Source: Rahnella laticis (GTDB taxonomy: Bacteria; Pseudomonadota; Gammaproteobacteria; Enterobacterales; Enterobacteriaceae). From it: DNA of 64,000 nt. The notes below the pieces were generated by a model. That model saw nothing but the letters and a program-made list of their open reading frames with translations. It did not search any database and was not told the origin of the DNA. This document shows, one piece after another, positions 7,829 to 49,269 of this stretch. The stretch spans positions 1 to 64,000 of the forward strand of contig NZ_JADOBI010000007.1 in assembly GCF_015644585.1 (NCBI RefSeq), in the 5' to 3' direction. The stretch's first letter is position 1. The number at the start of each line of letters is the position of its first letter. Position numbers and translations under genes: made by a program.

Positions 7829-7829
7829 A

Positions 7830-34947: not shown

Positions 34948-34949
34948 CG

Positions 34950-36290
34950 TTATTGGCCTTTTTTGTTGAGGATCTCAGTGCGTAATGCCGATACCGCCAG
35001 CGCGTGGCCGGGGAAGCCCTCGTACAGTGCGAACGCGTGGGCTTTTTCGGCCAGCGGCGCGTAGCCTTCGCGGGTCACGTAGCCGACTGAAATACGTTTC
35101 ATGTAATCGAAAACGGACAGCGGGCCGACGGTTTTTGCCGCGCCGTTGGTGGGCAGGACGGCGTTCGGGCCGAGCACGAAATTCCCCAATGTGATCGGCG
35201 TGTAGTTGCCGAGCAGGATTTCTCCGGCGTTGCGGATTTTGCCCATCACGGCCATCGGTTCTTCGGCAAGGATTTCCAGATGTTCCGGCGCGTACTGGTT
35301 AACAAATTCAACCGCAGTGTCGAAATCGGGCGTCAGCACCACGCCGCCGTGCGTACCGCATAACACAGCCTGCGAGAAACCGGCGCGCTTTTCGCCGATT
35401 TGCGCCCAGTAGCCGGGCAAGGCGGCAATGGCTTCTTCGGCCACGCGGCGGCTGTTTGTCACCAGATAAGCCGAGGAATCCGGCCCGTGTTCGGATTCTA
35501 TAATGAGATCTAAGGCCGCCAGCGCGCCGTCCACGCTGTCATCGGCCAGAATTAAGCTTTCGCTGGGCCCGGCGGGAATGCCCGGATCGATAAGGTTTGA
35601 TAACTGGCGTTTAGCCGCCACAACCCAGGGGCTGCCCGGCCCGACGATTTTCAGGCATTTCGGTACGGTTTCGGTGCCGAATGCCACGGCCGCCACGCCC
35701 TGTGCGCCGCCGCATTTATACACTTCGGTGATGCCCACCAGCCTTGCGGCGACCAGCGTGGCGTCGTCCACTTTGCCGTCCGGCCCCGGCGGGGTGATGA
35801 CAATGGCGCGTTTGACGCCAGCCACCACCGCCGGGATCGTGGTCATCAGAAAGACGCTGGGGAAAGACCCTTTGCCGCGCGGCACGTAGCAGGCGACGGA
35901 GTCGATCGGCACATGGCGGTCACCGGCAAATGCGCCGGGGCGGATTTCTTTCATCCACATGTCTTCGGGTTTCTGCGCTTCGTGGAATGCGCGGATGTTT
36001 TCCACCGAGAAACGGATGGATTCGATAACCTGCGGATCAAGGCGTTCAAACGCCGTGGCGAACTCGGAATCTTCCGCCATGATGCTCATTTCCGGCGCGG
36101 TGACCGCGTCGAAATCGCGGGCAAAGCGTTGCAGGGCGGCGTCGCCTTCGGTGCGCACGGCGTCGATAATCGGTGTCACGCGCTCAATGAAAAAGGATAA
36201 ATCCGCTTCGGTGCGCTGGAATAATGCCGGTGGCAGGTCGGTCGAGTCGCTCAGGTCATGAAAAGTCACAGCTTGAAAAGGTGCAGACAT
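34950..36290 (-). CDS. Histidinol dehydrogenase-like (HisD family) protein with altered metal site
   Basis: This belongs to the HisD family of zinc, NAD-dependent dehydrogenases that take an alcohol through an aldehyde to an acid. The 446-residue protein keeps the catalytic Glu-His pair in NQYAPEHLEI (near residue 326) and the metal histidine in SEHGPDSSAY. By my hand alignment to E. coli HisD, zinc ligand Gln259 is Glu (ESEH for QAEH), Asp360 is Asn and His367 is Ala (GNFVLGPNAV for GDYASGTNHV). These changes resemble paralogues with other substrates, such as the sulfopropanediol dehydrogenase HpsN, so a true histidinol dehydrogenase is doubtful. It sits in the HutC-box operon 16 bases after the ATPase gene. 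Confidence 0.85.
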   Translation of the reverse strand: MSAPFQAVTFHDLSDSTDLPPALFQRTEADLSFFIERVTPIIDAVRTEGDAALQRFARDFDAVTAPEMSIMAEDSEFATAFERLDPQVIESIRFSVENIRAFHEAQKPEDMWMKEIRPGAFAGDRHVPIDSVACYVPRGKGSFPSVFLMTTIPAVVAGVKRAIVITPPGPDGKVDDATLVAARLVGITEVYKCGGAQGVAAVAFGTETVPKCLKIVGPGSPWVVAAKRQLSNLIDPGIPAGPSESLILADDSVDGALAALDLIIESEHGPDSSAYLVTNSRRVAEEAIAALPGYWAQIGEKRAGFSQAVLCGTHGGVVLTPDFDTAVEFVNQYAPEHLEILAEEPMAVMGKIRNAGEILLGNYTPITLGNFVLGPNAVLPTNGAAKTVGPLSVFDYMKRISVGYVTREGYAPLAEKAHAFALYEGFPGHALAVSALRTEILNKKGQ

Positions 36291-36306
36291 GGTAAATCTC
36301 CGGTGA

Positions 36307-37077
36307 TCAGGCCAGCGCGGCGCGGGTGTGGCCGCTGCGGATAGTGTGGAGAACCTGACGTTGCAGGTCAGTGAATTCAGGGCTGGCGGTCAGTTCTTCG
36401 CGGCGCGGGCGCGGCAACGGCACATCAAACGTTGCCTGAATGGTGCCCGGTCCCATCACCACGATGCGATCGGAAAGATAAACCGCTTCCTCGATATCGT
36501 GGGTGACGAACATCACCGTCAGCCGGTGTTGTTCCCAGATACCGGTGAGCAACTCCTGCATCTGGTGGCGCGTCATGGCATCGAGCGCGCCGAAAGGTTC
36601 ATCCATCAGCAATATTTTCGGGCGATAGGACAGCGCGCGCGCAATCGCCACGCGTTGTTTCATACCGCCGGAAAGCTCGGACGGCCAGGCGTCAGCAAAC
36701 GCCGTCAGCTGAACCAGTTCGAGATGCTGATCGGCTTTTTCGCGGCATTCCGCCCGGCTGAACCCGGCGGCTTTGAGCGCAAATTCGATGTTCTGCCGCG
36801 CCGTCAGCCAGGGTAATAAAGTATAGGACTGAAACACCACGCCACGGTCGATGCCCGCGCCGCGTATGGTTTGTCCGTCAACCTGGACGTCGCCGCTGTC
36901 GTAATCCTCAAGGCCTGCCGCGATGGACAGCAGGGTGCTTTTGCCGCAGCCCGACGTGCCGACGACCGAGACAAATTCGTTGTCCGCCAGCGTCAGGCTG
37001 ATGTCGTGCAGTACTTCGCGCGTCTGTTTGCCGACCTGAAAACTTTTGTGTAAATGGGAAATGGTTAAAACCGACAT
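36307..37077 (-). CDS. ABC transporter ATP-binding protein (second NMT1-type importer)
   Basis: This is the ATPase of the second importer. Walker A is VGTSGCGKSTL (near residue 40), the signature is LSGGMKQRVA (near 135), Walker B is ILLMDEPFGALD and the switch is FVTHDIEEAVYL. I start at ATG 37077 (MSVLTISHLHKSFQVGKQTR), whose first base is the last base of the permease stop codon. A longer frame upstream is only the permease region read in another frame. The 256-residue length is typical of SsuB/TauB proteins. Confidence 0.92.
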   Translation of the reverse strand: MSVLTISHLHKSFQVGKQTREVLHDISLTLADNEFVSVVGTSGCGKSTLLSIAAGLEDYDSGDVQVDGQTIRGAGIDRGVVFQSYTLLPWLTARQNIEFALKAAGFSRAECREKADQHLELVQLTAFADAWPSELSGGMKQRVAIARALSYRPKILLMDEPFGALDAMTRHQMQELLTGIWEQHRLTVMFVTHDIEEAVYLSDRIVVMGPGTIQATFDVPLPRPRREELTASPEFTDLQRQVLHTIRSGHTRAALA

Positions 37078-37886
37078 CACGCATGCCTCTTGTTGTAGCG
37101 GAACAGTACGCGCTCGGCGGCACGCATAATCTGGTCGCTGATTAACCCCAATATCCCCAGCAGCAGGATGTAGCCGATAATGGTGTCGGTCTGGAAGAAG
37201 CGCTGGGACACGACGATGCGGTAACCCAGCCCGGAAGTGGAGGCGACCAGTTCGGCCAGCACCAGCCACGTCCACGCCCAGCCGAGGCTGATGCGCAGTG
37301 CGTCCCAGATGCCCGGCAGCGCGCCCGGTAAAACGATGCGGAAGAGGATTTTGCGATCCGGCATGCCGAGCGTGCGGCCTAAACCGACGAAATCGCCCGG
37401 CACGCGCTTCACGGCGTCGATCACCATTAACACCTGCTGGAAGAAGGTGCCGATCCAGATAATCAGGAATTTCTGCACATCGTCCGTACCGGTCCATAAA
37501 ATGGTCAGCGGCACGAACGCCACCACCGGCATGTAGCGAATGAAATCCACCAGCGGTTCGGTCAGGGCTTTGAAGAAACCGTAACAGCCTGCCAGCACGC
37601 CAATCACAATCGACATCACCGAGGAAATGGCGAACGCAATACTGATGCGGTAGAGGCTGCTTTTGACGTCACTCCACAGCGTGCCGTCCTGCGCCAGTGA
37701 CACCATTTTCAGCCACACGTCGGTGAGTTTTGGCAGAAAAATCGGCGGAATGGCGCCGCTGCGGGTCGCCAGCCCCCACGCCAGAAACAGGACAACGAAC
37801 AGCGCCACGGCGATGCCGACGAACAATTTGCGCGACGGCAGGCGGCCAATCACCATCAGGTTGAGCGGTTTACGGCGCGAACTCAT
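37077..37886 (-). CDS. ABC transporter permease (second NMT1-type importer)
   Basis: This 269-residue inner-membrane permease has an N-terminal helix (LFVGIAVALFVVLFLAWGLA) and further helices around the EAA loop, GLGRTLGMPDRKILFRIVLPGA (near residue 170). It belongs to the SsuC/TauC group. Its start overlaps the binding-protein stop by four bases, and its stop overlaps the ATPase start by one base, so the three subunits are tightly coupled. Confidence 0.92.
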   Translation of the reverse strand: MSSRRKPLNLMVIGRLPSRKLFVGIAVALFVVLFLAWGLATRSGAIPPIFLPKLTDVWLKMVSLAQDGTLWSDVKSSLYRISIAFAISSVMSIVIGVLAGCYGFFKALTEPLVDFIRYMPVVAFVPLTILWTGTDDVQKFLIIWIGTFFQQVLMVIDAVKRVPGDFVGLGRTLGMPDRKILFRIVLPGALPGIWDALRISLGWAWTWLVLAELVASTSGLGYRIVVSQRFFQTDTIIGYILLLGILGLISDQIMRAAERVLFRYNKRHA

Positions 37887-38893
37887 GGCAGGCTGTTCAC
37901 AAAGCTGGCGTCAATCACCTGCGCGGCGGCGACTGGTTTTGGGATCAACCCGGCGGCGGTGGCGGCTTTCAGCACATGCGCAAACGTCTGGTCGGAGAAC
38001 GAATGGCTGAGCACCTGTTTGTTTTCGGCCAGCGAATAATATTTCACGCCGTCAAACGCTGATTCTAAATCAGCCGGTGTGGCACCCACGGCTTTGGCAA
38101 TCAGGGCGCGGTCGGCGGTGGTGTTGGCCTGATAATGGGTCAGGGCGGCGTCCCAGCTTTTAATCAGCGCGGCAATCTGGCCCGGTTTTTCTTTCAATAC
38201 GGAATCGCGAACCACCAGAACGTCGCCGATCAGGCCCGGATCGGAAGAGCCGCTGTAGAGCATTTTCAGCGACGGATCCTGTTTTCTGGCGGCAGAAATG
38301 TACGGCTCGTAGGTCACGGCAGCGGTGACGCGTTTGGCAATCAGCGCGCTGCCTGCGGAATCGGCAGGCATCGGCACCGGCGTGATATCACTCCATTTCA
38401 GCCCGGCCGAGTTGACGGCGCTGTGCAGCAGAATGTCGCTGGTGGTGCCTTCTTCGAACGCCACCTGTTTACCTTTCAGGTCTTTCAGCGTGGCGATGTC
38501 TTTGCCGACCAGCAGGGCATCGGCGGTTTCGCTCTGATCGAGCAGTAAGACGACTTTCACCGGCAATCCGGCGGAAACCATTGCCATCGCGGTGTGTGTG
38601 GCGATGTTTGCGCCGTCAATCTGCCCGCTGGCTAACGCGGCGTTGATGTCTTTGTCTTCGGCGAAGTTAATGATGTCGACCTTTTCCAGCCCCTGCTGTT
38701 TAAAAATGCCCTGACTTTGTGCGACGTGCCATTGTCCGTAGCCCAGCCAGGGTTCGATACCCATTTTGAAGGTACCGGCTTCCGGCGCTGTCGTTGCCGC
38801 GCCAGCACTCAGGCTGAATGTCGTGAGAGCGCCAAGGCAACAGGCCAGCGCAACTTTGTTTTTTAAGGCGTTTAAGGTCTGAGTAGGTGACAT
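37883..38893 (-). CDS. ABC transporter substrate-binding protein (second NMT1-type importer)
   Basis: This is a periplasmic binding protein with the NMT1/TauA fold. The 336-residue product starts at ATG 38893, supported by AGGA six bases upstream. A signal peptide (VALACCLGALTTFSLSAGAA) follows. The mature region includes GIEPWLGYGQWHVAQSQGIF, SGQIDGANIATHTAMAMVSA and AVTYEPYISAAR. It is the first gene of a six-gene operon headed by the HutC box at 38955. It is only a distant relative of the binding protein at 22372, so it probably binds a different ligand. The regulation suggests an imidazole or histidine-derived compound. Confidence 0.9.
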   Translation of the reverse strand: MSPTQTLNALKNKVALACCLGALTTFSLSAGAATTAPEAGTFKMGIEPWLGYGQWHVAQSQGIFKQQGLEKVDIINFAEDKDINAALASGQIDGANIATHTAMAMVSAGLPVKVVLLLDQSETADALLVGKDIATLKDLKGKQVAFEEGTTSDILLHSAVNSAGLKWSDITPVPMPADSAGSALIAKRVTAAVTYEPYISAARKQDPSLKMLYSGSSDPGLIGDVLVVRDSVLKEKPGQIAALIKSWDAALTHYQANTTADRALIAKAVGATPADLESAFDGVKYYSLAENKQVLSHSFSDQTFAHVLKAATAAGLIPKPVAAAQVIDASFVNSLP

Positions 38894-38954
38894 GGTGATC
38901 CTCGCATGGTGTTGAAAGAGAGAAAGACGGCTAATAGAAATCCTAATGTGCAAC

Positions 38955-38968
38955 CCTGTATAGACAAG
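38955..38968. promoter_or_regulatory. HutC box upstream of the HisD-like transporter operon
   Basis: CCTGTATAGACAAG is identical over 14 bases to the hutH box read on the minus strand. It lies 62 bases before the substrate-binding protein start, about the same distance as in the hut transporter. It is the only one of the five boxes that precedes no known hut gene, which ties this operon to HutC and histidine metabolism. Confidence 0.8.
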
Positions 38969-39171
38969 TGAGTAAAGCAATTACTACGCCACAGTTGAAA
39001 TCACGGAAGGAAATCAGGCAGGGCATTGATGTTATACATTTTTGGATAATTAATGAGAAGGAGGTAAACGAATTTATAATTAAAAGTGATAACCTGCACC
39101 ACAATATGACTTTCATTGCTCTGCGCCGGTGCACAAGACGACGGAACCGGCAATATTCCCGCTTAATCGAA

Positions 39172-40152
39172 TCAGCTGGCTTTCGCTTCAGGCCGGGGAA
39201 TGAGTGCCTGTTTGAGGGCGCTAAAGAATAAATTCAGCACGGAATTAAACGGTGCGCCTTTTTTTACTACCAGGCTGAACGGGGTGGCTATTTCAATATT
39301 ATCCGGCATCAGGGCTTTGAGTTTATTTCCGCCCATGAACGCACTGGCATAATGTTCCGGTAAAAAACCGAGATAATTACCGGTCATCAGTAACATGGTG
39401 ACTGCTTCGACCTGTACGGCGATGGCGTGCGGCGTTGTGACGTCGGAGAAGATATTTTTCTTACTGTGATTGGCGTAAAAGTGATTCACCATTTGCGAGG
39501 ATTTGATTTGTGATTCTTTAATTTCCTGAGCCGGAACGGAGAAGAACGGGTGTTTATCGCCACAATAAAGATAGGTCATTTCGTGATACAGGAAAAAGTA
39601 ATCAAATTCCGGTTTCTCCTGATAGACAGGCATGATGCCGCAGGTAAAACGGCCATCAATCACGCCGCGTTCAATCTCATCGAGCTGGGTGGCGTGCAGG
39701 CGGATGTTCACCTTTGGCGCCTGACGGTAAACCTCGCCTAAGCCACAGACGACGGGCGATTGCGGATCCGTGATGGTGTTGTCGATAATGCCGATGTTCA
39801 GTTCGCCGAACAGTTCGTGGCGGGCATGATTGAGTTTGTCGCGAAAGAGGTTGATGGAAGAGAATAAATCCAGACAAGCCTGATAGGCGACTTTTCCGTG
39901 TTCGGTTAAATAAAACCCCTCACGCCCGCGCGTGCAAAGTTTCATCCCGAAGCGGATCTCCAGATCCGATATTTGTTTGCTGATTGCCGCCAGGCCAATA
40001 TTCAGTTCATTACAGGCGGCGGTAAATCCACCGGCCTCTACCACGGTTTTAAACACGCGCAAAAGTTTTAAATCTGCGACGCCAAGGCTGTGCTGGTTAA
40101 TATCACTTTTCGCGGGTGACGTGTTTCCTGATTTGGAAAGTGGACTTTCCAT
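39172..40152 (-). CDS. LysR-type transcriptional regulator
   Basis: This 326-residue regulator has a 30-residue leader, a helix-turn-helix at about 35-90 (LRVFKTVVEAGGFTAACNEL, AAISKQISDLEIRFGMKLCT) and a ligand-binding domain for the rest. It is divergent from the argininosuccinate-lyase-like operon with 186 bp between start codons, the usual arrangement for a LysR activator of its neighbour. The gene is AT-richer than its neighbours. The inducer is unknown. No HutC box lies on its side, so it probably governs the operon at 40.3-47.4 kb. Confidence 0.88.
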   Translation of the reverse strand: MESPLSKSGNTSPAKSDINQHSLGVADLKLLRVFKTVVEAGGFTAACNELNIGLAAISKQISDLEIRFGMKLCTRGREGFYLTEHGKVAYQACLDLFSSINLFRDKLNHARHELFGELNIGIIDNTITDPQSPVVCGLGEVYRQAPKVNIRLHATQLDEIERGVIDGRFTCGIMPVYQEKPEFDYFFLYHEMTYLYCGDKHPFFSVPAQEIKESQIKSSQMVNHFYANHSKKNIFSDVTTPHAIAVQVEAVTMLLMTGNYLGFLPEHYASAFMGGNKLKALMPDNIEIATPFSLVVKKGAPFNSVLNLFFSALKQALIPRPEAKAS

Positions 40153-40338
40153 AATAAATATTTACCCCCGCTCTAAAAATCTACAACATCAAATTCACTT
40201 AGCCTCACTCGTTATTACGCTGTAAGCCCAGATTGTTCAGTGTCATTCGAAATGCTGCCGGCTGAAATTTATTTCAACGCCGTCAGACAATACGCTGGAT
40301 TCAGGTTTGCAACATCTATGCCATAAAAGGAAACGATC

Positions 40339-41766
40339 ATGTCCCAGCAGCCAGAACTTCTTTGGGGAGCCCGCTTCAAACACGGGCCAGCCGCGGCGTT
40401 AAGCGCCTTATCGCGCAGCCCGGAATATTATTTTTCACTTGCTGAATATGATCTGGAAGGGTGCCGCGCACACGCTTATGAATTAAAGCGCGCCGGTTTA
40501 CTTGACGAGAATGAAACCCGGCAGATGGTTGAGGCCATTGAGCAACTGGCCGCCGATTTTCGCGCCGGAACCGTGACGCCGGTTCAGGGCGATGAAGACG
40601 TGCATACGTTTATCGAACGCAGCCTGACCGAACGGCTGGGCGCACTTGGCGGCAAACTGCGCGCCGGACGTTCCCGTAATGACCAGACCGCCAACGATTT
40701 GCGTCTGTATCTGCGCGATAACACCCGCAAAATCGTGGTGGCGCTGCTGGAATTACAAACCGCGCTGATCAAACAGGCTGAACAGCATATCCATACCCTC
40801 GCACCCGGTTTTACGCATCTGCAACAGGCGCAGCCGATTGTGTTTGGTCATCAGCTGATGGCGCATGCGCAGTCGTTTTACCGCGACGTTGAACGCCTGC
40901 GTGACTGGGATAAACGCTGCGCACTTTCCCCGCTCGGGGCGGCGGCGATGGCCGGTTCTGCCATCGCGATGCACCCGGAATTATCCGCCAAAGATCTGGG
41001 CTACGACGGTGCCTGTGAAAACTCCATTGACGCCGTTGCCAGCCGTGACCACGTCGCTGAATTTCTGTTTGCCGGCAGCATGCTGAGCGTCAACTTATCG
41101 CGCATTTGCGAAGAAGTTTGCCTGTGGGCGTCGCGCCAGTTCCGCTGGGTCGAGCTTGACGACGGTTACGCCACCGGCAGTTCCATCATGCCGCAGAAGA
41201 AAAACCCTGATATTGCCGAGCTGACCCGGGGCAAAAGTGGCCGTCTGATTGGCAACGTGACGGCGATGCTCACCACCATGAAAGGGCTGCCGCTTTCGTA
41301 TAACCGCGACCTGATTGAAGACAAACGTAATGCGATGGACACCGTTGATCAACTGTTGCTGGTGCTGCCTGCAATGGCCGGAATGATCGACACCATGAAG
41401 GTGAACGTTGAACGGCTGCGCGAACAGGCACCGGAAGGTTTCACGCTGGCGACCGAAGTGGCGGACTGGCTTTCCCGCCGCGGCGTGCCGTTTAAGGAAG
41501 CGCACGAAATCACCGGCCAGCTGGTGCAGGTTTGCGAGCAACACAATCTGGCGCTGCATGAACTCAGCGACGCACAGCTGCTGGCTGTAGATCCGCGTCT
41601 GAACGCTGACGTGCGCGATTGCCTGACGTTAGAAGCCGCGGTGAATGCCCGCAGCGGCTGGGGCGGTACGTCTCCGGTGCGCGTGGCCGAGCAGATTGAA
41701 CGGTTGAAAGTGCGTCTGGCCGGGCAGTCGGCCTGGGCAACGGCGTACACCGGCCTGTCTTTATAA
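40339..41766 (+). CDS. Argininosuccinate lyase-like C-N lyase
   Basis: This is a member of the fumarase/aspartase superfamily closest to argininosuccinate lyase. The 475-residue protein has LRAGRSRNDQTANDLRLYLR (near residue 108), TLAPGFTHLQQAQP (catalytic histidine region), SPLGAAAMAGSAI, ENSIDAVASRDHV and the signature GSSIMPQKKNPDIAE (near 283). It differs from housekeeping ArgH at many other positions, and it is followed by an amino acid ABC importer, deacetylase-family proteins and an MmgE/PrpD protein rather than arg genes. The family includes EDDS lyase and similar enzymes that release fumarate from N-substituted aspartates, which fits this context better. AAAGGA precedes the ATG. Confidence 0.85.
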   Translation: MSQQPELLWGARFKHGPAAALSALSRSPEYYFSLAEYDLEGCRAHAYELKRAGLLDENETRQMVEAIEQLAADFRAGTVTPVQGDEDVHTFIERSLTERLGALGGKLRAGRSRNDQTANDLRLYLRDNTRKIVVALLELQTALIKQAEQHIHTLAPGFTHLQQAQPIVFGHQLMAHAQSFYRDVERLRDWDKRCALSPLGAAAMAGSAIAMHPELSAKDLGYDGACENSIDAVASRDHVAEFLFAGSMLSVNLSRICEEVCLWASRQFRWVELDDGYATGSSIMPQKKNPDIAELTRGKSGRLIGNVTAMLTTMKGLPLSYNRDLIEDKRNAMDTVDQLLLVLPAMAGMIDTMKVNVERLREQAPEGFTLATEVADWLSRRGVPFKEAHEITGQLVQVCEQHNLALHELSDAQLLAVDPRLNADVRDCLTLEAAVNARSGWGGTSPVRVAEQIERLKVRLAGQSAWATAYTGLSL

Positions 41767-41803
41767 CGTCTGCATAACTTCTACACCTCGCGGGGAGCGG
41801 CGA

Positions 41804-42676
41804 ATGACTTTGTATCAAAAGACGTCTGAAAATGTGAAAACCGCTGATATCGATCTCAGCGAATACCACTACGTGCCGCAGCGTTATTACGGCCGGATTT
41901 TTGCCTCGGTTGTGATCCTGGTGCTGCTGGCCTTGCTGGTGAACGCCTTTGCGCACGGCAAAATCGAATGGCAGTACGTGGCGCAGTTTCTGACCGCCAA
42001 AGCGATTTTGTTCGGGCTGGGCAACACCATTGTGATGTCGGTGCTGGCGATGGCGCTGGGGATTGTGTTCGGGGTGATTATCGCGGTGATGCGCATGTCG
42101 CAAAACCCGGTGCTGCGCAGCGTGGCGATGGGCTATACGTGGATTTTTCGCGGTACGCCACTGATTCTACAGCTGTTGCTGTGGTTTAACCTGGCACTGA
42201 TTTTCCCGACCATTTCCATTCCCGGCCTGTTCAGCATTCAGACCGTGGACATCATGACGCCATTCACTGCCGCGCTGCTTGGCCTGAGCATTAATCAGGG
42301 CGCGTACACCTCGGAAGTGGTGCGCGCCGGGCTGATTTCGGTCGATCTCGGGCAGTACGAGGCGGCGAAGTCCATCGGCATGACGCGTCTGCATGCGCTG
42401 CGGCGGATCATTTTGCCGCAGGCGATGCGGGTGATTATTCCGCCTATCGGCAATGAATTCATCAGCATGGTGAAGACCACCAGTCTGGCGAGCATGATCC
42501 AGTATTCCGAAGTGCTTTATAACGCGCAGACCATTTACTTCGCCAATGCGCGGGTGATGGAACTGCTGTTTGTCGCCGGTATCTGGTACCTGGTGGTGGT
42601 GACGGTGTTGTCGCTCGGGCAGAACCGTCTGGAACGCTATTTCGGCCGTGGCACCCGCCGCCGCACCAGCCACTGA
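41804..42676 (+). CDS. Polar amino acid ABC transporter permease
   Basis: This is a HisM/GlnP-type inner-membrane permease of 290 residues. A 35-residue cytoplasmic lead is followed by helices from [20 protein letters not shown] onward. The family motifs are [15 protein letters not shown] (near residue 108) and the EAA loop [20 protein letters not shown]. One permease gene implies a homodimer. GGGGAG precedes the ATG. It starts 37 bases after the lyase gene, in the same operon. Confidence 0.93.
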
Positions 42677-42687
42677 GGAGCGAGACC

Positions 42688-43452
42688 ATGAAAAGTATTA
42701 TCAAAGCCGTCAACGTCAATAAGTACTTTGACCAGTTTCAGGCGCTGAAAAACATCAATCTTGAGGTTAAACACGGCGAAGTGATGTGCATCATCGGGCC
42801 GTCAGGCTCGGGGAAAAGTACGTTTCTGCGCTGCATTAATCAGCTTGAGCGCATCGACAGCGGCGGCGTCTGGGTGGATGACGAACTGGTCGGTTACCGC
42901 ATGGACGGCAAGAAACTTTATCCGCTCAATGACCGGCAGATTGCCCGCCAGCGGCTGAAAACCGGCATGGTCTTTCAGCGTTTCAATCTGTTCCCGGACA
43001 AAACCGCGCTGGAAAACATTATCGAAGGGCCGTGTCAGGTTCTGCTGCGGCCGGTGAAAGAAGCCACGCAGGAAGCCATGGTGCTGCTCGAACGCGTCGG
43101 GCTGGCGCATAAGCGCGATGCGTATCCGCTGGAGCTTTCCGGTGGTCAGCAACAGCGCGTGGCGATTGCCCGTGCGCTGGCGATGAAACCCAAAGTGATG
43201 CTGTTTGATGAACCGACGTCAGCACTCGATCCGGAAATGGTCGGCGAAGTGCTGGCGGTGATGCGCGGCCTTGCCGCTGAAGGGATGACGATGATTGTGG
43301 TCACGCATGAATTAGGTTTCGCGCGGGAAGTCGCTAACCGCGTGGTCTTCATGGATGAGGGCGGAATTATAGAAAGTGGTAATCCGGAAGACATTTTGCT
43401 TAATCCACAAAACCCGCGGACGCAGAACTTTATCTCTGCCGTCCTCATTTGA
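42688..43452 (+). CDS. Polar amino acid ABC transporter ATP-binding protein
   Basis: This 254-residue ATPase resembles HisP/GlnQ. Walker A is [19 protein letters not shown] (near residue 38), the signature is [15 protein letters not shown] (near 150) and Walker B is [19 protein letters not shown]. The H-loop is [13 protein letters not shown]. Its insertion [20 protein letters not shown] is typical of the histidine/arginine class. The gene is 11 bases after the permease and belongs with the binding protein that follows. Confidence 0.94.
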
Positions 43453-43490
43453 CCCGTTTGCCGTTAACTTTTGACTATGGGAATGCCTTC

Positions 43491-44312
43491 ATGAAAAAAA
43501 CACTGTTGTCCCTTATTACTGCGGCTGTTCTGTTGCAGGGCGCGGTTTCTGTCGCCAGCGCCGCTGAGCTGAAACAAAAAGACGAAATCAAAGTGGCGAT
43601 GATGCCGAACTATCCGCCGCTGGAATTCAAAGATCCGGCCACCGGCCAGCTGACCGGGATGGATTACGATCTGGGTATGGAACTCGGCAAACGCCTGAAC
43701 CGCAAAATCAGCTGGCAGGAAATCGGCTTCGAACAGATGGTGAACGCCGTCGCCACGCATCGCGTGGACATGATCCTTTCCGGCATGACTGACACCAAAC
43801 CCCGCCAGGATATCGCCACATTTGTCGATTACTACAACAGCGGACCGCAGTTCTACACCACCGTCGCGCACAAAGAAATCAACACCATGTCAGATCTCTG
43901 TGGCAAGAAAGTCGGCACCAGCCGCCGCACCACTTTCCCGGCTGAAATCGCCGCCTGGAGCGAAGCAAACTGCGTTCCGGCAGGCAAACCGTCCATCGTG
44001 GTGATTGGCGCGGAAGGCACGGCGGATGCGCGTACCCAGCTGCGTCAGGGGCGAATCGAAGGCGTGGTGCAGGGCAGCGAAACTTTGCCGTACATCATGA
44101 ATCTGGAAAAAGACACCTATAAACCGCTGGGCAAAGCTTTTGCGTATCAGGTCACCGGCATGGGGATCAGCAAAGACGATCAGCCGCTGATTGACGCGGT
44201 GAAAGGCGCGCTGACCGGCATGATTGCCGATGGTACGTATCTGAAAATCCTCACCAAATGGGGCCTGCAGGATGGTGCAATTCAGGAAGTCACCATCAAT
44301 AAAGGCAAATAA
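43491..44312 (+). CDS. Polar amino acid ABC transporter substrate-binding protein
   Basis: This is a family 3 (SBP_bac_3) periplasmic amino acid binding protein. I start at ATG 43491, with GGGA upstream and a clean signal peptide (KTLLSLITAAVLLQGAVSVA, cleaved near ASA). The 273-residue product has PNYPPLEFKDPATGQLTGMD, LGMELGKRLNRKISW and VDMILSGMTDTKPRQDIATF, the usual ligand-binding lobes. The pathway downstream suggests an N-substituted amino acid or amino-dicarboxylate ligand; the fold alone does not tell. Confidence 0.93.
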   Translation: MKKTLLSLITAAVLLQGAVSVASAAELKQKDEIKVAMMPNYPPLEFKDPATGQLTGMDYDLGMELGKRLNRKISWQEIGFEQMVNAVATHRVDMILSGMTDTKPRQDIATFVDYYNSGPQFYTTVAHKEINTMSDLCGKKVGTSRRTTFPAEIAAWSEANCVPAGKPSIVVIGAEGTADARTQLRQGRIEGVVQGSETLPYIMNLEKDTYKPLGKAFAYQVTGMGISKDDQPLIDAVKGALTGMIADGTYLKILTKWGLQDGAIQEVTINKGK

Positions 44313-44333
44313 CCTCAGGTAACGGACCGACTC

Positions 44334-45191
44334 ATGACGATTTCAGCACAACACTCGGCCAGTCTATGGCCGGAAGGCAAACGCGGCTGCATGGCGCTGG
44401 CGTTTGATCTCGACGGCCCGACCGGCGACGCGATGCTTAACGGCACAATCTGGCAGAAAGCGGATTACTTTACCTTCGGTGCTTACGGCCCTTACCGGGC
44501 GCTGGGGCGGATCCTCGATTTGCTCAGTGAACATCAGCTTCCGGCGACGTTTTTCATTCCCGCGTGGGTGGTGGAAAACTGGCCGAAACAGTGTCAGGCG
44601 ATTGTCGAACACGGCCATGAAGTGGCGTATCACGGTTATCGTCATGAGTCTTTTTACGCCATCAGCGCCGAAAAACAGCGCTGGGTGATGGAGAAATCCC
44701 GCGAGATTTTCTGGCAGGTGTTAGGGATACGCGCCGAAGGTTTCCGCACACCGTCCGGCGACTGGCACAAGGAAACACCGGCGATGCTGCTCGACGCGGG
44801 CGTGACGTATTCCAGCAGTATGCGCGGCGACGACCGGCCTTATCTGATCACCGTGCCCGGCCATGAGCGCCCGCTGGTGGAAATCCCCGGCCGCTGGGAA
44901 ATGGACGATTACGCGTCTCTGGCCTACACCCGCGAGCCGAATTTCCCGTCGGGTCTGGATCGCACCGCCAGTTACGCGCTGACGCTCGACAACTGGTGCC
45001 GTGAATACGACGGCGCGATGAATGAAGGGCTGAGCCTGACGACGTTGTTCCATCCGAAAATCAGCGGAAAACCGGGGCGCATCATGCTGCTTGATCAATT
45101 TTTCAGCCACCTTAAAGCGCGTGACGATGTGTGGTTTGCGCGCTGCCGCGACGTGGCGCACTGGTGGATGCAGGAGCACGCCAATGACTAA
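44334..45191 (+). CDS. NodB-type polysaccharide deacetylase/allantoinase-family protein, catalytic-type
   Basis: This 285-residue protein belongs to the carbohydrate esterase 4 (NodB) superfamily, in the branch that includes allantoinase PuuE and Helicobacter PgdA. The first metal-site motif reads AFDLDGPTGD rather than TFDDG. The HxxxH metal motif is present as HGYRHESF (near residue 103). Later FRTPSGDWHKETPAML and TTLFHPKISG supply the arginine and histidine regions. There is no signal peptide, so it acts in the cytoplasm, which argues against a cell-wall substrate and for amide or cyclic imide hydrolysis of an imported compound. It overlaps the next gene by eight bases. Confidence 0.85.
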   Translation: MTISAQHSASLWPEGKRGCMALAFDLDGPTGDAMLNGTIWQKADYFTFGAYGPYRALGRILDLLSEHQLPATFFIPAWVVENWPKQCQAIVEHGHEVAYHGYRHESFYAISAEKQRWVMEKSREIFWQVLGIRAEGFRTPSGDWHKETPAMLLDAGVTYSSSMRGDDRPYLITVPGHERPLVEIPGRWEMDDYASLAYTREPNFPSGLDRTASYALTLDNWCREYDGAMNEGLSLTTLFHPKISGKPGRIMLLDQFFSHLKARDDVWFARCRDVAHWWMQEHAND

Positions 45192-46086
45192 TCAAAACTG
45201 GCCGCAGGGCTATCGCTGCGCGGTGATTATCACTGTGGATTTCAACGATATTCACGGCATTCTCAGCCAGGTTCCCGCCGTAGCTGGCCGCGAAAAAACG
45301 CTGTCGGTCTGGCGATACGGCACGCTGCGCGGCATTGACCGTTTGCTGGCGCTGCTGGATGAAAAAAAACTGCGCAGCGCCTGGTGTGTGCCGGGCATTG
45401 TGGCGGACGAAAACCCGGAGAAGATCCGCGAAATCGACCGCGCCGGTCACGAGCTGGCGACCTGTGGCTATGAATTTGCGCATTTCGACGGGCTGACGCT
45501 GGCGCAGCAAACTGACAGTCTGCAACGGGGCAAAGCGGCGCTAAAAGCCCTGACCGGCAAGGTGCCGCGCGGTTTCCGTCTGCCCGCAGGAAACTGGGCA
45601 CCGGGTTTTGCGGATGTGCTGACGGATGAAGGTTTCAGCTGGACCTCCGGCTGGCGCGGCGATGATTTGCCGTATTTCCAGCCCATGCAGGATGGCTTGC
45701 CGTCGCGGCTGGTGGAATTACCACTGCATTATGAGATGGAAGACGAGCCGTATTTCGCCTTTAACCTCAGCCCGGCGGTGCCCCCGGCGCAGTCACGTAT
45801 TGCGTCCTACAGCCAGACGCTGGGCAACATGAAGATGGATTTCGACGGTTTCTACCGTTTTGGCCTGTGCTATGTGCTGCGGCTGCATCCGGAAGTGATC
45901 GGCACCGCCGGACGCATTGGCGTGCTGGCTGAACTCCTGGACTACATCACGTCAAAACCGGATGTCTGGGTCGCCAGCGCCAGCGAGGTGGCCGACTGGT
46001 GGTCACAGAATCAGCTGCAAAACGAGGCGTCCCATCCGGCGCAGATCTGGATGCAACACACCGCGCCGGGAGTCAGCCATGAGTAA
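45184..46086 (+). CDS. NodB-type deacetylase-family protein with degenerate metal site
   Basis: This 300-residue paralogue of the preceding protein starts at ATG 45184 inside the previous stop region. The fold is the same (AVIITVDFNDIHGILSQ, FRLPAGNWAPGFADVL, LHYEMEDEPYFAFNLSP, YVLRLHPEVIG). However, the HxxxH metal motif is replaced by ATCGYEFAHFDG, where the first histidine is Cys. Loss of this ligand suggests an inactive or altered partner, perhaps in a heteromer with the upstream enzyme. No signal peptide is present. It overlaps the MmgE/PrpD gene by eight bases. Confidence 0.82.
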   Translation: MTNQNWPQGYRCAVIITVDFNDIHGILSQVPAVAGREKTLSVWRYGTLRGIDRLLALLDEKKLRSAWCVPGIVADENPEKIREIDRAGHELATCGYEFAHFDGLTLAQQTDSLQRGKAALKALTGKVPRGFRLPAGNWAPGFADVLTDEGFSWTSGWRGDDLPYFQPMQDGLPSRLVELPLHYEMEDEPYFAFNLSPAVPPAQSRIASYSQTLGNMKMDFDGFYRFGLCYVLRLHPEVIGTAGRIGVLAELLDYITSKPDVWVASASEVADWWSQNQLQNEASHPAQIWMQHTAPGVSHE

Positions 46087-47434
46087 GATTTCGCAGCAGC
46101 AAGTTCTGAGCGAATTTGTGGTGAATACCCATTTCGACGATTTGCCGCCACGGCTGGTGGAACGTACCAAAAGGCATATTCTCGATACGATTGGCGCGGG
46201 GCTGGTGGGCGCCACCAGCGACGTGGCGAAAGATGTGGCCGCGATGATCCTCGGCGAAGGCGCACTGCCGCTTTCGCCGGTCTGGGGCTACCGCGAGCTG
46301 ACGTCCGCGCGCAACGCTGCGCTGCTCAACGGCGTGGCGGCGCACGCGCTGGAACTCGATGACACCGGCGGCTGCGATCATTCCGGCGCGGTGGTCATTC
46401 CCGCCTTGCTGGCGGTGTTGCCGCTGTGCCCGCAACCGGTCAGCGGCAAAGCGTTTATCACGGCAGTCGTTATTGGTTACGACGTGGCGCGCCGCGTGCT
46501 GGAAGCCTGCGGCGGCTATTCTCCGCATAACCGTGCGGGCTGGCATTCCACGTCAACCTGCGGCGTATTTGGCGCAGCGGCGGCCGCGGGGAAAGTTCTC
46601 GGCCTGAGCGCAGGGCAGATCAGCTCAGCACTGGGCATTTCCGGCAGTTTCAGCGGCGGCCTGTGGGCGTTTATCCATGACGGTTCACAGAGCAAAAAAT
46701 TGCACGCAGGCCGCGCCGCAGAAGGCGGAGTACTCGCCGCGCTCAGCGCCCGGCAGGGTATCAGCGGGCCTGCGCAGTTATTCGAAGATAAGTGGGGCGG
46801 ATTCCTCTCAACGCTGGCACCGCCAAGCGCAATGCCCGAAATGCTGACGGCAAATCTGGGTGAAATCTGGAAGCTGGAGCGTTGTTCCATCAAGCCTTAC
46901 GCCTCGTGCCGTGGTACGCATTCCGCCATCGACGCGACCGGCATTTTGCTTGAGGAAATGCACGCGACCGCCGGTGATATCGAAAAAATCGTCGTCCGTT
47001 TGTGCCCGTTCCTCAACGGCATGTGCGGAGATAATGAAATCGCCACGCTGGCGGCGGCGCAGATGAGCCTGCGTTACGCCATTGCGGCGCGTGTCGTTTT
47101 CGGCCACGCCGGGCTGGACGCTTACGGCGCAGCACAACGGCAGGCCCCGGATTTGCTGGCGATGATTACCCGGATCGTGCTGACGGAAGATGCCACGATG
47201 AGTTCCGACGGCGAGCCGGATGTCACGATTTTCACCCGAACCGGCGAATCAAAAACCTTGCGTGTAGATGTCGCGCTGGGCGCGCCGGGAAATCCGGTGT
47301 CGGATGAGCAGCTTAAGGAGAAGTTTATGTCGCTGGCGACCCGGGTGATTTCAGTGGCGGGTGCCGGGAGGATCTGGAGCAGCGGGATGGAGATGGAGAA
47401 TTTGCCTGATGTGCAGGGGGTGTTTGGGCGGTGA
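46079..47434 (+). CDS. MmgE/PrpD family protein
   Basis: This 451-residue protein belongs to the MmgE/PrpD family, which covers 2-methylcitrate dehydratase, cis-aconitate decarboxylase and iminodisuccinate epimerase. It shows the all-helical domain with ERTKRHILDTIGAGLVGATS (near residue 25), VAAHALELDDTGGCDHSGAV (near 90) and SRKLHAGRA-like QSKKLHAGRAAEGG (near 205), followed by IKPYASCRGTHSAID. It is the last gene of the operon. With an argininosuccinate-lyase-like enzyme upstream, an epimerase role on an N-linked dicarboxylate is attractive but inferred. prp genes are absent, which argues against methylcitrate metabolism. Confidence 0.87.
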   Translation: MSKISQQQVLSEFVVNTHFDDLPPRLVERTKRHILDTIGAGLVGATSDVAKDVAAMILGEGALPLSPVWGYRELTSARNAALLNGVAAHALELDDTGGCDHSGAVVIPALLAVLPLCPQPVSGKAFITAVVIGYDVARRVLEACGGYSPHNRAGWHSTSTCGVFGAAAAAGKVLGLSAGQISSALGISGSFSGGLWAFIHDGSQSKKLHAGRAAEGGVLAALSARQGISGPAQLFEDKWGGFLSTLAPPSAMPEMLTANLGEIWKLERCSIKPYASCRGTHSAIDATGILLEEMHATAGDIEKIVVRLCPFLNGMCGDNEIATLAAAQMSLRYAIAARVVFGHAGLDAYGAAQRQAPDLLAMITRIVLTEDATMSSDGEPDVTIFTRTGESKTLRVDVALGAPGNPVSDEQLKEKFMSLATRVISVAGAGRIWSSGMEMENLPDVQGVFGR

Positions 47435-48225
47435 GGGGGGAGTTGAAATTGGAAAATTTCGAGTTCAACTTTAAGACCTTGGGCTCGCCGCCCAAACTGG
47501 CCCAAAGGGCGCGTTAACGCGCGCGCCCTCTGGACACCCGCGCTTTTTAACTGCGCGCTGTCGCTTGTAAAGTATGTTTCAGCTGCCGCAGCTATTGCCG
47601 CAAACGCCGCCGCTGCGCGGTTCTTTCGCCTCGGGTTCGAACCTGCTCGAAAAAAGACTCTCGCCGTTTCTCACTCCTCACTCAACGTCGTTTTGAAAGC
47701 GGCTACAGGCTATGTAATTCGGAAGATACATGCAGGCTGGTTTTGATTTGCTCCTTCCCCTTGGCAAGGGGAAGGACGGGATGGGGTTCGAAATGGCAAC
47801 TTTAAAGCTGAGTTGTTTGCAAAACCCCCTCCCAGCCTCCCCCTTCGCAGGGGGAGGAGCAAACCAGCCGCTCATAAAAGCTTGCAGAATGGCATAGCCA
47901 GTGGCCGCTTTCAGAAAGCTTGCTGAGTGAGTGTTTCGAGACCGTGGGCTCGAAGACCGAAATGAAGGAACCGCGTAGCGGCAAGTTTTCGCGGCAATAA
48001 TTGTGGTGGCTGAAACAGTGCCAGCCAGCGATAGCGCGCAGTTAAAGAGCCCGGGATTCTTAAGGGGCGCGGCGACAGGCGCTCCTTAAGGCCCGTTTGG
48101 GTGGCAACCCAAGGTTCTGCCCTGTTGGCCCGAACCAAATTTTTACTTGTCCCGCTCTGTAAGCTGGTGTCAAATCAGGTGATTAGCGTCCTGACGGGCA
48201 AGACCGTTAAACAGAGGAAAATCCC
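47435..48225. repeat. Intergenic mosaic repeat R5 (complete)
   Basis: This 791 bp gap between two plus-strand genes holds a complete element (about 47468-48125) that is nearly identical to R4, including the left end GGGCTCGCCGCCCAAACTGG, the TCCTTCCCCTT linker hairpin and the double CTCCCCCTTCGCAGGGGGAG palindrome. Its right end differs: the hairpin is TTAAGGGGCGC pairing with GGCGCTCCTTAA, changed from R4 on both sides. It is the only complete copy not placed between convergent genes. The last 90 bases hold only the ydgJ promoter region. Confidence 0.88.
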
Positions 48226-49269
48226 ATGTCCCAGACTCTCCGCGTTGGCCTGATCGGCTATGGCTTCGCCAGTAAAACTTTCCATTCACCTTTGATTGAC
48301 GGCACGCCGGGCCTTGAGCTGGCGGTGGTGTCGAGCAGTGACGCCGCAAAAGTCCATGCCGACTGGCCAAATGTCACGGTTGTTGATTCCCCGGAGAAGC
48401 TTCTCGCCGATCCGTCTATCGATCTGGTGGTGATCCCTACGCCAAACACTACGCATTTCCCGCTGGCGAAGCTGGCGCTGGAAGCCGGTAAACACGTTGT
48501 TGTCGATAAACCGTTTACCGTGACGCTCGAAGAAGCCCGCGAGCTGGACGCGCTGGCGCGTGAAAAAGGCAAAGTGCTTTCTGTGTTCCACAACCGTCGC
48601 TGGGATTCTGATTTCCAGACCGTGAAGGCATTGATCGAAGAGGGTTCGCTGGGCGAAATCGTGTATTTCGAATCCCATTACGATCGCTACAAACCGCAGG
48701 TGCTTGCGCGCTGGCGTGAAAGCGATGCGCAGGGCAGCGGCATCTGGTACGACTTAGGTTCGCATCTGCTGGATCAGGCGCTGCAATTATTTGGTTCGCC
48801 GGATTCGTTACAGGCTGACCTGGCAGTGCTGCGTCCGGGCGGTAAAGCCGTGGATTATTTCAATGCCGTGCTGACGTATCCGCGCCGTCGCGTGGTGTTG
48901 CACAGCACCGTGTACGCCGTGGCAGAAACGGCCCGCTTTATCGTTCAGGGCGAAACCGGCAGCTACGTGAAATTTGGTCTGGATCCCCAGGAAGATCGTC
49001 TGAAAGCGGGCGAACGTCTGCCGCAGGAAGACTGGGGATACGACAAACGTGACGGCGTGATCACGCTGAGCCACGACGGTGTGCTGGCAGAGAAATCCCT
49101 GCTGACCATTCCGGGGAACTATCCTGCGTATTACGCCGGTGTGCGCGATGCAATTAACGGCAACGGCGAAAATCCGGTTCCGGCGTCAGACGCTATCCGC
49201 GTAATGGAAATGATTGAGCTGGGCATGCAATCTTCAGAACAACAGGCGACGCTGAAAGTAAAAAAATAA
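48226..49269 (+). CDS. ydgJ: Gfo/Idh/MocA family oxidoreductase YdgJ
   Basis: This is an NAD(P)-dependent dehydrogenase of unassigned substrate. The 347-residue protein has the Rossmann start VGLIGYGFASKTFHSPLI, the family VVDKPFTVTLEEARELD (near residue 95, EKP-type motif as DKP) and SGIWYDLGSHLLDQALQLFG (near 168). It matches E. coli YdgJ throughout, and its neighbours (add, malYXI) are the same as in E. coli. AGAGGA precedes the ATG. Confidence 0.92.
   Translation: MSQTLRVGLIGYGFASKTFHSPLIDGTPGLELAVVSSSDAAKVHADWPNVTVVDSPEKLLADPSIDLVVIPTPNTTHFPLAKLALEAGKHVVVDKPFTVTLEEARELDALAREKGKVLSVFHNRRWDSDFQTVKALIEEGSLGEIVYFESHYDRYKPQVLARWRESDAQGSGIWYDLGSHLLDQALQLFGSPDSLQADLAVLRPGGKAVDYFNAVLTYPRRRVVLHSTVYAVAETARFIVQGETGSYVKFGLDPQEDRLKAGERLPQEDWGYDKRDGVITLSHDGVLAEKSLLTIPGNYPAYYAGVRDAINGNGENPVPASDAIRVMEMIELGMQSSEQQATLKVKK

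Follow-up and report, generated by a model that had tools for sequence, protein, structure and literature searches.

An operon of Rahnella laticis joining an argininosuccinate lyase-derived enzyme, an amino acid importer, two NodB-type proteins and an MmgE/PrpD protein: a candidate pathway for fumarate adducts

Introduction

The degradation of iminodisuccinate (IDS) is known in Agrobacterium tumefaciens BY6 and, to go by the title of a 2004 paper of Cokesa and colleagues, all IDS isomers are said to be degraded by an epimerase acting together with a stereoselective C-N lyase. IDS epimerase converts R,R- and S,S-iminodisuccinate to the R,S isomer and is said to have all of its active-site residues in common with the IRG1 protein of Bacillus subtilis (PMC7347537). 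A second system, the yxe/scm locus, is described as encoding a polar amino acid ATP-binding cassette (ABC) importer, the fumarate-releasing lyase 2SL, a deacetylase and YxeQ, a protein of unknown function, and is defined there by the clustering of at least three of YxeK/2SL, YxeL, YxeMNO, YxeP and YxeQ (PMC9706529). Here, we have examined an operon in the first 64,000 nucleotides of a contig from Rahnella laticis (RefSeq assembly GCF_015644585.1, contig NZ_JADOBI010000007.1; this whole stretch is referred to as the window) that encodes a C-N lyase, a polar amino acid ABC importer, two NodB-type proteins (designated PDA1 and PDA2) and an MmgE/PrpD-family protein (MmgE), with a divergent LysR-type gene. 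The lyase appears to derive from argininosuccinate lyase (ArgH), the gene set is widely conserved, and the operon is likely to handle a fumarate adduct.

A conserved operon of eight genes

A preliminary description of this DNA, made from the sequence alone, had recognized a plus-strand operon with a divergent LysR gene, and the open reading frame (ORF) list and Pfam matches bear it out for all eight genes (Table 1). Gaps of 37 bases (lyase to permease), 11 bases (permease to ATPase), 38 bases (ATPase to the ATG of the binding protein gene) and 21 bases (binding protein to PDA1) are followed by two overlaps of 8 bases each, between PDA1 and PDA2 and between PDA2 and MmgE. The starts of the binding protein, PDA2 and MmgE genes are those of the preliminary description, and the ORF list offers upstream TTG starts. 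The importer is complete, as had been claimed, with the genes for the SBP_bac_3 protein, permease and ATPase together. By eye, a signal-like N-terminal stretch was seen in the binding protein and none in PDA1 or PDA2. The LysR-type protein is presumed to be the operon's regulator, and a scan of positions 39100-48300 found no sigma-70 promoter.

Table 1. Genes of the operon and their positions in the window
Gene product	Position	Strand	Domains and family models
LysR-type regulator, divergent	39172..40152	-	PF00126 (HTH_1) + PF03466 (LysR_substrate)
ArgH-branch C-N lyase, 475 aa	40339..41766	+	Lyase_1 + ASL_C2; TIGR00838
Polar amino acid ABC importer, permease	41804..42676	+	PF00528 (BPD_transp_1)
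ABC importer ATPase	42688..43452	+	PF00005 (ABC_tran)
Periplasmic binding protein, 273 aa, altered ligand site	43491..44312	+	PF00497 (SBP_bac_3)
PDA1, NodB/PuuE/HP0310-branch amidohydrolase, metal site intact	44334..45191	+	PF01522 (Polysacc_deac_1)
PDA2, PDA1 paralogue with broken metal site	45184..46086	+	PF01522 (Polysacc_deac_1)
MmgE/PrpD-family protein, 451 aa, predicted epimerase	46079..47434	+	PF03972 (MmgE_PrpD_N) + PF19305 (MmgE_PrpD_C)

A query with the MmgE-clade alignment matched 279 loci in named genomes, and the best 80 of these were compared. All eight genes are present in 71 of the 80, and the gene order is constant save in one locus (L115). Of the other nine, six are truncated by the end of a contig and begin within the operon, two (L051 and L071) are cut at the LysR gene, and in the last (L118) the sole absence is a LysR hit. 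In the 74 loci that do not begin within the operon, the lyase is always accompanied by PDA1, PDA2 and MmgE, PDA1 and PDA2 are adjacent in all 80, and a divergent LysR gene adjoins the lyase gene in 71. The closest named locus is that of Rahnella sp. AA, in which MmgE is 96 % identical. Enterobacterial hosts include Rahnella, Rouxiella, Serratia sp. M24T3, Acerihabitans, Erwinia, Pantoea, Winslowiella, Prodigiosinella and Mangrovibacter, and further hosts account for 57 Pseudomonas/Metapseudomonas loci and include the halomonads Vreelandella and Halotalea; many are, by name, plant or soil bacteria. The full set was also found in 13 of the 14 Enterobacterales regions that gave the best MmgE matches outside the window's genome, some of these genomes being also among the 80 loci; in L043, one of the 13, the permease and PDA1 genes are each read as two frames. 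Burkholderia stagnalis and Burkholderia pyrrocinia carry it in the same order on plasmids or secondary replicons. Conserved co-occurrence, which the preliminary description had named as a check, is thus found in each of these sets, and the genes form a conserved operon of catabolic type and no chance cluster.

The alphaproteobacterial loci are less uniform. Seven of the eight encode the lyase, the importer, MmgE and a single PDA protein whose metal motif is intact, the gene order varying among them. In the eighth, from Ochrobactrum quorumnocens, both PDA types are present and the lyase is a different one (38 %). In Sinorhizobium meliloti 1021, the MmgE gene is in two frames (L005:12955-14357), and the other S. 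meliloti records listed have one MmgE match across 97-98 % of the protein.

Among sampled genomes of the same family, 66 of 295 had some MmgE match; the three other genomes of the genus in this sample had none, and hence the operon is sporadic. In a phylum-wide sample of 398 genomes, a match at E <= 1e-100 was found in seven, the window's genome included. None of 5426 Escherichia coli genomes contained 80 % of the operon; a short match occurred in 314 of them, and in the five matches listed this was 83 bases of the ATPase gene.

The claim that the operon is undescribed also stands, in that no description of it was found in the open-access literature, subscription papers being outside the search. 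Co-mention of 'argininosuccinate lyase' and 'MmgE' was likewise not found in open-access papers, which says nothing on subscription print. The automatic gene names in the operon, namely argininosuccinate lyase, polysaccharide deacetylase, 2-methylcitrate dehydratase and ribulose-phosphate 3-epimerase, conceal a set conserved in dozens of genomes of Pseudomonas, Pantoea, Erwinia, Rahnella and rhizobia. In a Neorhizobium locus (L195:8965-11240), for example, the PDA gene is annotated 'ribulose-phosphate 3-epimerase' and the MmgE gene '2-methylcitrate dehydratase', both misleading.

The lyase

The lyase matches the NCBIfam argH model (TIGR00838) at 539.4 bits, against a cut-off of 279.5. Among solved proteins, it matches ArgH of Mycobacterium tuberculosis (6iem) at 489 bits and ethylenediaminedisuccinate (EDDS) lyase (6g3d) at only 216.1 bits. 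In a tree of 58 sequences (24 operon, 28 canonical, three alternative, two actinobacterial and one EDDS-like, a subset of those collected), built by a quick method with the Shimodaira-Hasegawa-like approximate likelihood ratio test (SH-aLRT) as sole support, the operon lyases fall into a single clade (SH-aLRT 100), whose sister group is the two actinobacterial ArgH sequences (joint clade 100). Support is weaker (86) for the next sequences to join, four gammaproteobacterial ArgH and duck delta crystallin. As only two actinobacterial sequences were in the tree, an actinobacterial donor can be suggested only tentatively. An Arthrobacter homologue (51 % to the lyase) lies among what appear, by eye, to be ordinary clustered arg genes, where an ArgH of the ancestral type would be expected.

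The preliminary description had likened the lyase to EDDS lyase. Kinship with EDDS lyase was rejected on the scores, on the position in the tree and on the general-acid His, which is retained (at position 160 of the window lyase, and in all 84 operon lyases compared), whereas EDDS lyase has Gln159. The lyase does fall inside the ArgH tree, one of the findings that the preliminary description had set jointly against itself; another, a lack of conserved neighbours, is clearly contradicted by the 71 complete loci.

Residues were compared in 84 operon lyases, with identical sequences counted once and operon-type lyases of <55 % identity (L048 and L136) excluded, and in 40 other ArgH sequences from the sampled genomes and the window's own genome, which are canonical by family match rather than by context. 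The core residues Ser283, Lys289, Asn291, Thr161, His162, Arg115 and Asn116 (duck numbering) are kept in all 84. At the Asp33 position, however, the operon lyases have Tyr (83) or Phe (one), and at the Gln328 position they have Ser (66), Ile (10), Gly (four), Ala (three) or Val (one), whereas Asp and Gln are invariant in the 40 others. The Ser29 position, Ser in all 40, is Cys in 46, Ser in 36 and Ala in two. From the delta-crystallin complexes, we take Asp33 and Gln328, together with Ser29, to face the amino acid head of arginine and not the fumarate half. On these residue patterns, the enzyme would be a C-N lyase, as the preliminary description had it, of a specialised branch of ArgH in which the fumarate-side core is intact and the amine side has changed. 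A separate, higher-scoring ArgH is present in all 18 operon genomes tested, and the lyase appears to be redundant with the genome's own ArgH.

Two loci, L199 (2037-10365) and L187, have importer, NodB-type and MmgE genes with another ArgH-like lineage (38-39 % to the window lyase), in which positions 29, 323 and 330 are Cys, Phe and Ser, respectively.

The importer and its binding protein

The best NCBIfam equivalog for the permease is the cystine permease model and the best matches for the ATPase are GlnQ and TcyN, all below their cut-offs, and the binding protein groups with binders of polar amino acids. Binding proteins were aligned after excluding those with <44 % identity or <200 columns, leaving 92 sequences, repeats included (79 distinct). 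In all 92 (79 of 79 distinct), the position of HisJ Asp161 is Gly, that of HisJ Gly119 is Arg, and HisJ Arg77 is kept; each of the four solved relatives in the alignment has Asp at the Asp161 position. We presume that in HisJ Asp161 contacts the alpha-ammonium group of the ligand and Arg77 its carboxylate. The combination of the two replacements with the retained Arg fits an acidic ligand in which the alpha nitrogen is substituted, so that there would be no free alpha-ammonium, and this evidence is independent of that from the lyase. The earlier proposal that a compound with an N-linked dicarboxylate is imported is, to this extent, supported by the binding site, which indicates a carboxylate-bearing ligand seemingly lacking a free alpha-ammonium.

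The MmgE/PrpD protein

MmgE matches PF03972 at 208.7 bits and PF19305 at 100.3 bits (cut-offs 32.1). The link to IDS epimerase made in the preliminary description holds, as the best solved match is IDS epimerase (2hp3, 127.8 bits); B. subtilis IRG1 follows at 126.6 bits and cis-aconitate decarboxylases at 125.0 and lower. The candidate active-site positions Asp94, His101, His156, Lys206, His209, Lys272 and His281, mapped by sequence alignment only, are present in all 97 aligned sequences (91 of 91 distinct; those with <50 % identity or <80 % of the length were excluded). Since IDS epimerase and IRG1 are said to share their active-site residues, family membership does not decide between an epimerase and a decarboxylase. 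We prefer an epimerase, given that MmgE is partnered by a C-N lyase, and infer that MmgE may act on the succinyl carbon.

The two NodB-type proteins

The preliminary description had two cytoplasmic NodB-type proteins. The family is right, though the two are not equivalent, as the metal site is whole in PDA1 and broken in PDA2. The triad Asp27, His100 and His104 of PDA1 is present in 94 of 94 sequences (86 of 86 distinct), whereas in PDA2 the first metal His is absent from 95 of 95 (89 of 89 distinct) and the second is kept in 78 of 95. The 94 and 95 include repeats, and sequences with <60 % (PDA1) or <50 % (PDA2) identity or <80 % of the length were excluded. The closest relatives of PDA1 are in the cytoplasmic PuuE/HP0310 branch. 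A structure model of PDA1 (mean predicted local distance difference test score 77.9, predicted template modelling score 0.81) aligned best with 3rxz (Z 29.0, root-mean-square deviation 2.8, 262 residues aligned), then with HP0310 (Z 26.8), PuuE (26.7), 1z7a (26.7) and 3s6o (26.3), the next entry being at 20.8. Members of this branch are described as having a cavity reduced for small molecules; the substrate of PuuE is a small cyclic imide and the enzyme is not metal-dependent, while HP0310 binds metal (PMC3084791, PMC10967932). Identity with PuuE allantoinase was rejected for both proteins, as PDA1 (88.4 bits) and PDA2 (76.7 bits) are far under the cut-off of TIGR03212 (424.6). We suggest that the two might form a heteromeric hydrolase, or else be a metal enzyme and a PuuE-like metal-free one. 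The role of this pair is the weakest step of the pathway proposed below.

Genes adjoining the operon

In Prodigiosinella confusarubida (L112) and a second Prodigiosinella genome (L041), astC, astA, astD, astB and astE, which encode the arginine succinyltransferase (AST) pathway, begin 100 bases after the MmgE gene on the same strand. In L112, all five are above curated cut-offs, there is one weak terminator-like match between the MmgE and ast genes, and this cluster holds the only AstA found in that genome (the one genome tested). Agrobacterium and Neorhizobium have an agmatinase-family gene as the last of the row, directly after the operon genes, and Microvirga likewise has one directly after the operon genes, with genes for arginase and ornithine cyclodeaminase upstream. 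Nine of ten Pantoea-Erwinia-type loci, the tenth being cut by a contig end, are followed after 1.1-6.4 kb by an agmatinase-family gene on the opposite strand, beside a LysR gene. Downstream of the 57 Pseudomonas loci, astA is found in 13 and ctlX in 14. A rough, after-the-fact count puts the chance of each such closeness to an arginine gene at 0.1-3 %. In several lineages, the adjoining genes suggest that the amine released is arginine or another guanidino compound. This evidence is good but not decisive, because the gene families were picked after viewing the neighbours, and one old event might account for all the Pantoea-Erwinia cases and another for those of Pseudomonas.

At one locus (L048:8149-13169), a gene for a DcuA/DcuB C4-dicarboxylate carrier stands between those for MmgE and a 41 % lyase, and neither a PDA gene nor an ABC importer lies beside them. 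This arrangement fits fumarate as a product and the lyase and MmgE as the core. This variant has a GntR-like regulator (by eye) and could be a fermentative version of the pathway.

According to a study of an S. meliloti 1021 tolC mutant, argH2 and the importer genes SMb21094-SMb21097 were down 10- to 21-fold on arrays, and argH2 4.5-fold by reverse transcription PCR; the authors ascribe the drops in transport genes, probably, to lower NtrC (PMC2912261). By name and replicon, these genes are taken to be the operon genes of L005. A sigma-54 promoter upstream of the lyase gene, an idea taken from the NtrC remark, was rejected on a scan of the upstream stretches: GG-N10-GC occurs in 39 of 99, about the rate in letter-shuffled sequences (36 %), and none scored >=9, against 2 % of shuffles.

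GCN5-related N-acetyltransferase (GNAT) genes lie beside the operon in several genomes, those of Agrobacterium, Sinorhizobium and Shinella being related (55-79 %), those of Chelatococcus and Microvirga distantly so (28-37 %) and that of Burkholderia unrelated. Related copies are near some rhizobial operons only, and GNAT was not taken as a core part. A gene for a glycerol-dehydrogenase-like iron alcohol dehydrogenase adjoins the operon, on either side, in L053, L054, L057, L058 and Pantoea-Erwinia loci, and it also occurs without the ureohydrolase gene.

A proposed pathway and its alternatives

That the operon handles a fumarate adduct is likely. We propose tentatively, giving it somewhat less than an even chance, that it serves to scavenge arginine, or a close guanidino compound, in the form of a fumarate adduct. 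Gene content, conservation, residue patterns, phylogeny and neighbours are what was observed, and the reactions, their regulation, the order of the three middle steps and the substrate are all conjectured from them. The candidate substrate is an argininosuccinate-like conjugate with the amino acid head blocked, cyclised or altered. The binding protein and ABC importer would take up this acidic ligand lacking a free alpha-ammonium, and PDA1, with PDA2 as a degenerate partner, may then hydrolyse a small amide or ring, such as an acyl group, a cyclised acyl-guanidine or an imide. MmgE would epimerise the succinyl carbon, as IDS epimerase does, making all stereoisomers usable, and the ArgH-derived lyase would eliminate fumarate and free the amine. 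Fumarate would pass to the tricarboxylic acid cycle, and the arginine or guanidino compound, depending on the host, to the AST pathway, to arginase and ornithine cyclodeaminase, or to an agmatinase-family ureohydrolase. In the pathway first outlined for this DNA, the conserved catabolic operon, the C-N lyase and the carboxylate ligand have stood and the EDDS-type lyase has not; the opening of an amide or imide and the epimerisation are conjectural steps.

Several observations weigh against arginine as the product. Most loci, the window's included, have no arginine gene nearby, and the window's own genome lacks an arginase-family protein, though it has AstA. No related ureohydrolase was found in the other five of the eight alphaproteobacterial stretches. 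The alphaproteobacterial ureohydrolase that was tested matched guanidinopropionase (285.7 bits) and guanidinobutyrase (258.8) better than agmatinase (202.1), and arginase weakly; it may thus act on something other than arginine itself. In the Pantoea-Erwinia group, as in Pseudomonas, the recurring neighbour may reflect one old chromosomal location. The lyases of L187 and L199, beside like partners, retain both Asp33 and Gln328, hence the changed pocket is not universal, and the arginine-holding role of these two residues is presumed. The lack of a sigma-54 site leaves nitrogen control without backing.

The same chemistry could act on an amine that is not a guanidino compound, the substrate being iminodisuccinate, an EDDS-like chelator or a fungal toxin of the aspergillomarasmine/lycomarasmine type, in which case the PDA proteins would open an amide or lactam. 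IDS epimerase, which turns the R,R and S,S isomers of iminodisuccinate into the R,S one (PMC7347537), is the best solved match of MmgE, the extra Arg and missing ammonium-binding Asp of the binding protein are what such a ligand would need, and plant and soil bacteria are frequent among the hosts. Set against this are a lyase in the ArgH branch, distant from EDDS lyase and with the ArgH His retained, and the arginine and guanidine neighbours of several lineages, which would go unexplained; we regard this alternative as unlikely, though not negligible. A plain spare ArgH, importing and splitting free argininosuccinate while the PDA proteins and MmgE have some side function, would account for the high argH score, the nesting within the ArgH tree and the adjoining arginine genes of some lineages. 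It is hard to square with the loss of Asp33 and Gln328 from all 84 operon lyases and their retention in the 40 others, with a binding protein lacking the alpha-ammonium Asp, or with PDA1, PDA2 and MmgE staying with the lyase in all 74 uncut loci, and we consider it improbable.

A role for MmgE as a hydratase or decarboxylase, with the lyase acting on some other dicarboxylate and no fumarate adduct involved, draws on the cis-aconitate decarboxylase and IRG1 matches, which at 114-127 bits almost equal that of IDS epimerase. As the lyase has the core of an argininosuccinate lyase and the PDA-free variant joins lyase and MmgE to a C4-dicarboxylate carrier, this seems rather more improbable still. 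There is finally a sulfur route, in which the lyase would split an S-(2-succino) thiol as 2SL does. The nearest NCBIfam equivalog of the permease is, after all, a cystine model, and YxeQ is presumably an MmgE/PrpD protein. The yxe/scm loci have a similar architecture of importer, lyase-class-I enzyme and deacetylase (PMC9706529). However, the window operon has neither a YxeL-type acetyltransferase nor YxeP, related GNAT genes are confined to the surroundings of some rhizobial operons, the lyase is within ArgH, and the known neighbours are nitrogen and not sulfur genes, the S. meliloti homologues also varying with nitrogen genes. We think this route very improbable.

A fuller version of the arginine proposal, namely a new pathway for blocked or cyclised argininosuccinate-type conjugates common enough in soil and on plants for such an operon to persist across many Proteobacteria, combining a neofunctionalised ArgH, a heteromeric NodB-fold pair of a metal-bearing and a degenerate member, and a new MmgE/PrpD epimerase and passing arginine to AST or a ureohydrolase, is possible but doubtful. 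If the pathway is as proposed, it would point to a nutrient, present in soil or on plant surfaces, that is absent from the open-access papers searched, would give functions to a clade of MmgE/PrpD proteins and to a NodB-fold pair, and would be a case of a biosynthetic enzyme turned catabolic via change on the amine side of its pocket. The residue changes and neighbours named here open the model to standard genetics.

Other features of the window

Two further gene groups were seen in the window. On the minus strand, positions 32871-38980 include a histidinol-dehydrogenase-family gene with genes for an SsuA-type binding protein, a permease, an ATPase and a short-chain dehydrogenase/reductase oxidoreductase, which may form a cluster for the catabolism of sulfonates or related compounds. 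On the plus strand, positions 7109-16094 hold a cellulose synthesis row of bcsQ, a PilZ-domain glycosyltransferase gene (bcsA-like), bcsB and bcsC.

Comparison with known systems

The operon lyase has its family, catalytic core and descent in common with ArgH. It differs in the changes at Asp33 and Gln328, in its place in a catabolic-type operon and in not being the sole ArgH. EDDS lyase of Chelativorans BNC1, though of the same superfamily and handling N-substituted aspartates, fumarate and amines, is far more distant from the operon lyase than ArgH is, and has Gln159 where the operon lyase has His. For PDA1, PuuE and HP0310-type deacetylases are the nearest named solved relatives, all belonging to the cytoplasmic small-molecule branch of the polysaccharide deacetylases, but PDA1 is far below the PuuE cut-off and has a full metal triad, and the operon includes no purine-degradation genes.

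The yxe/scm loci cluster an importer, a fumarate-releasing lyase and a deacetylase, and the window holds an importer, a lyase and MmgE. Unlike those loci, the window operon has no acetyltransferase and no YxeP, its lyase is derived from ArgH, and the heteroatom is presumed to be N rather than S; 2SL (E0SKP1, E6LDH5) was compared by gene content and description. The degradation of IDS likewise pairs an MmgE/PrpD protein with a C-N lyase, and in both systems the pair is predicted to allow use of all N-(1,2-dicarboxyethyl) stereoisomers. The likeness lies in the MmgE sequence, the IDS lyase having been compared by description only. However, the operon MmgE is only a distant relative of IDS epimerase (127.8 bits), and the operon adds the PDA pair, a dedicated importer and arginine-related neighbours.

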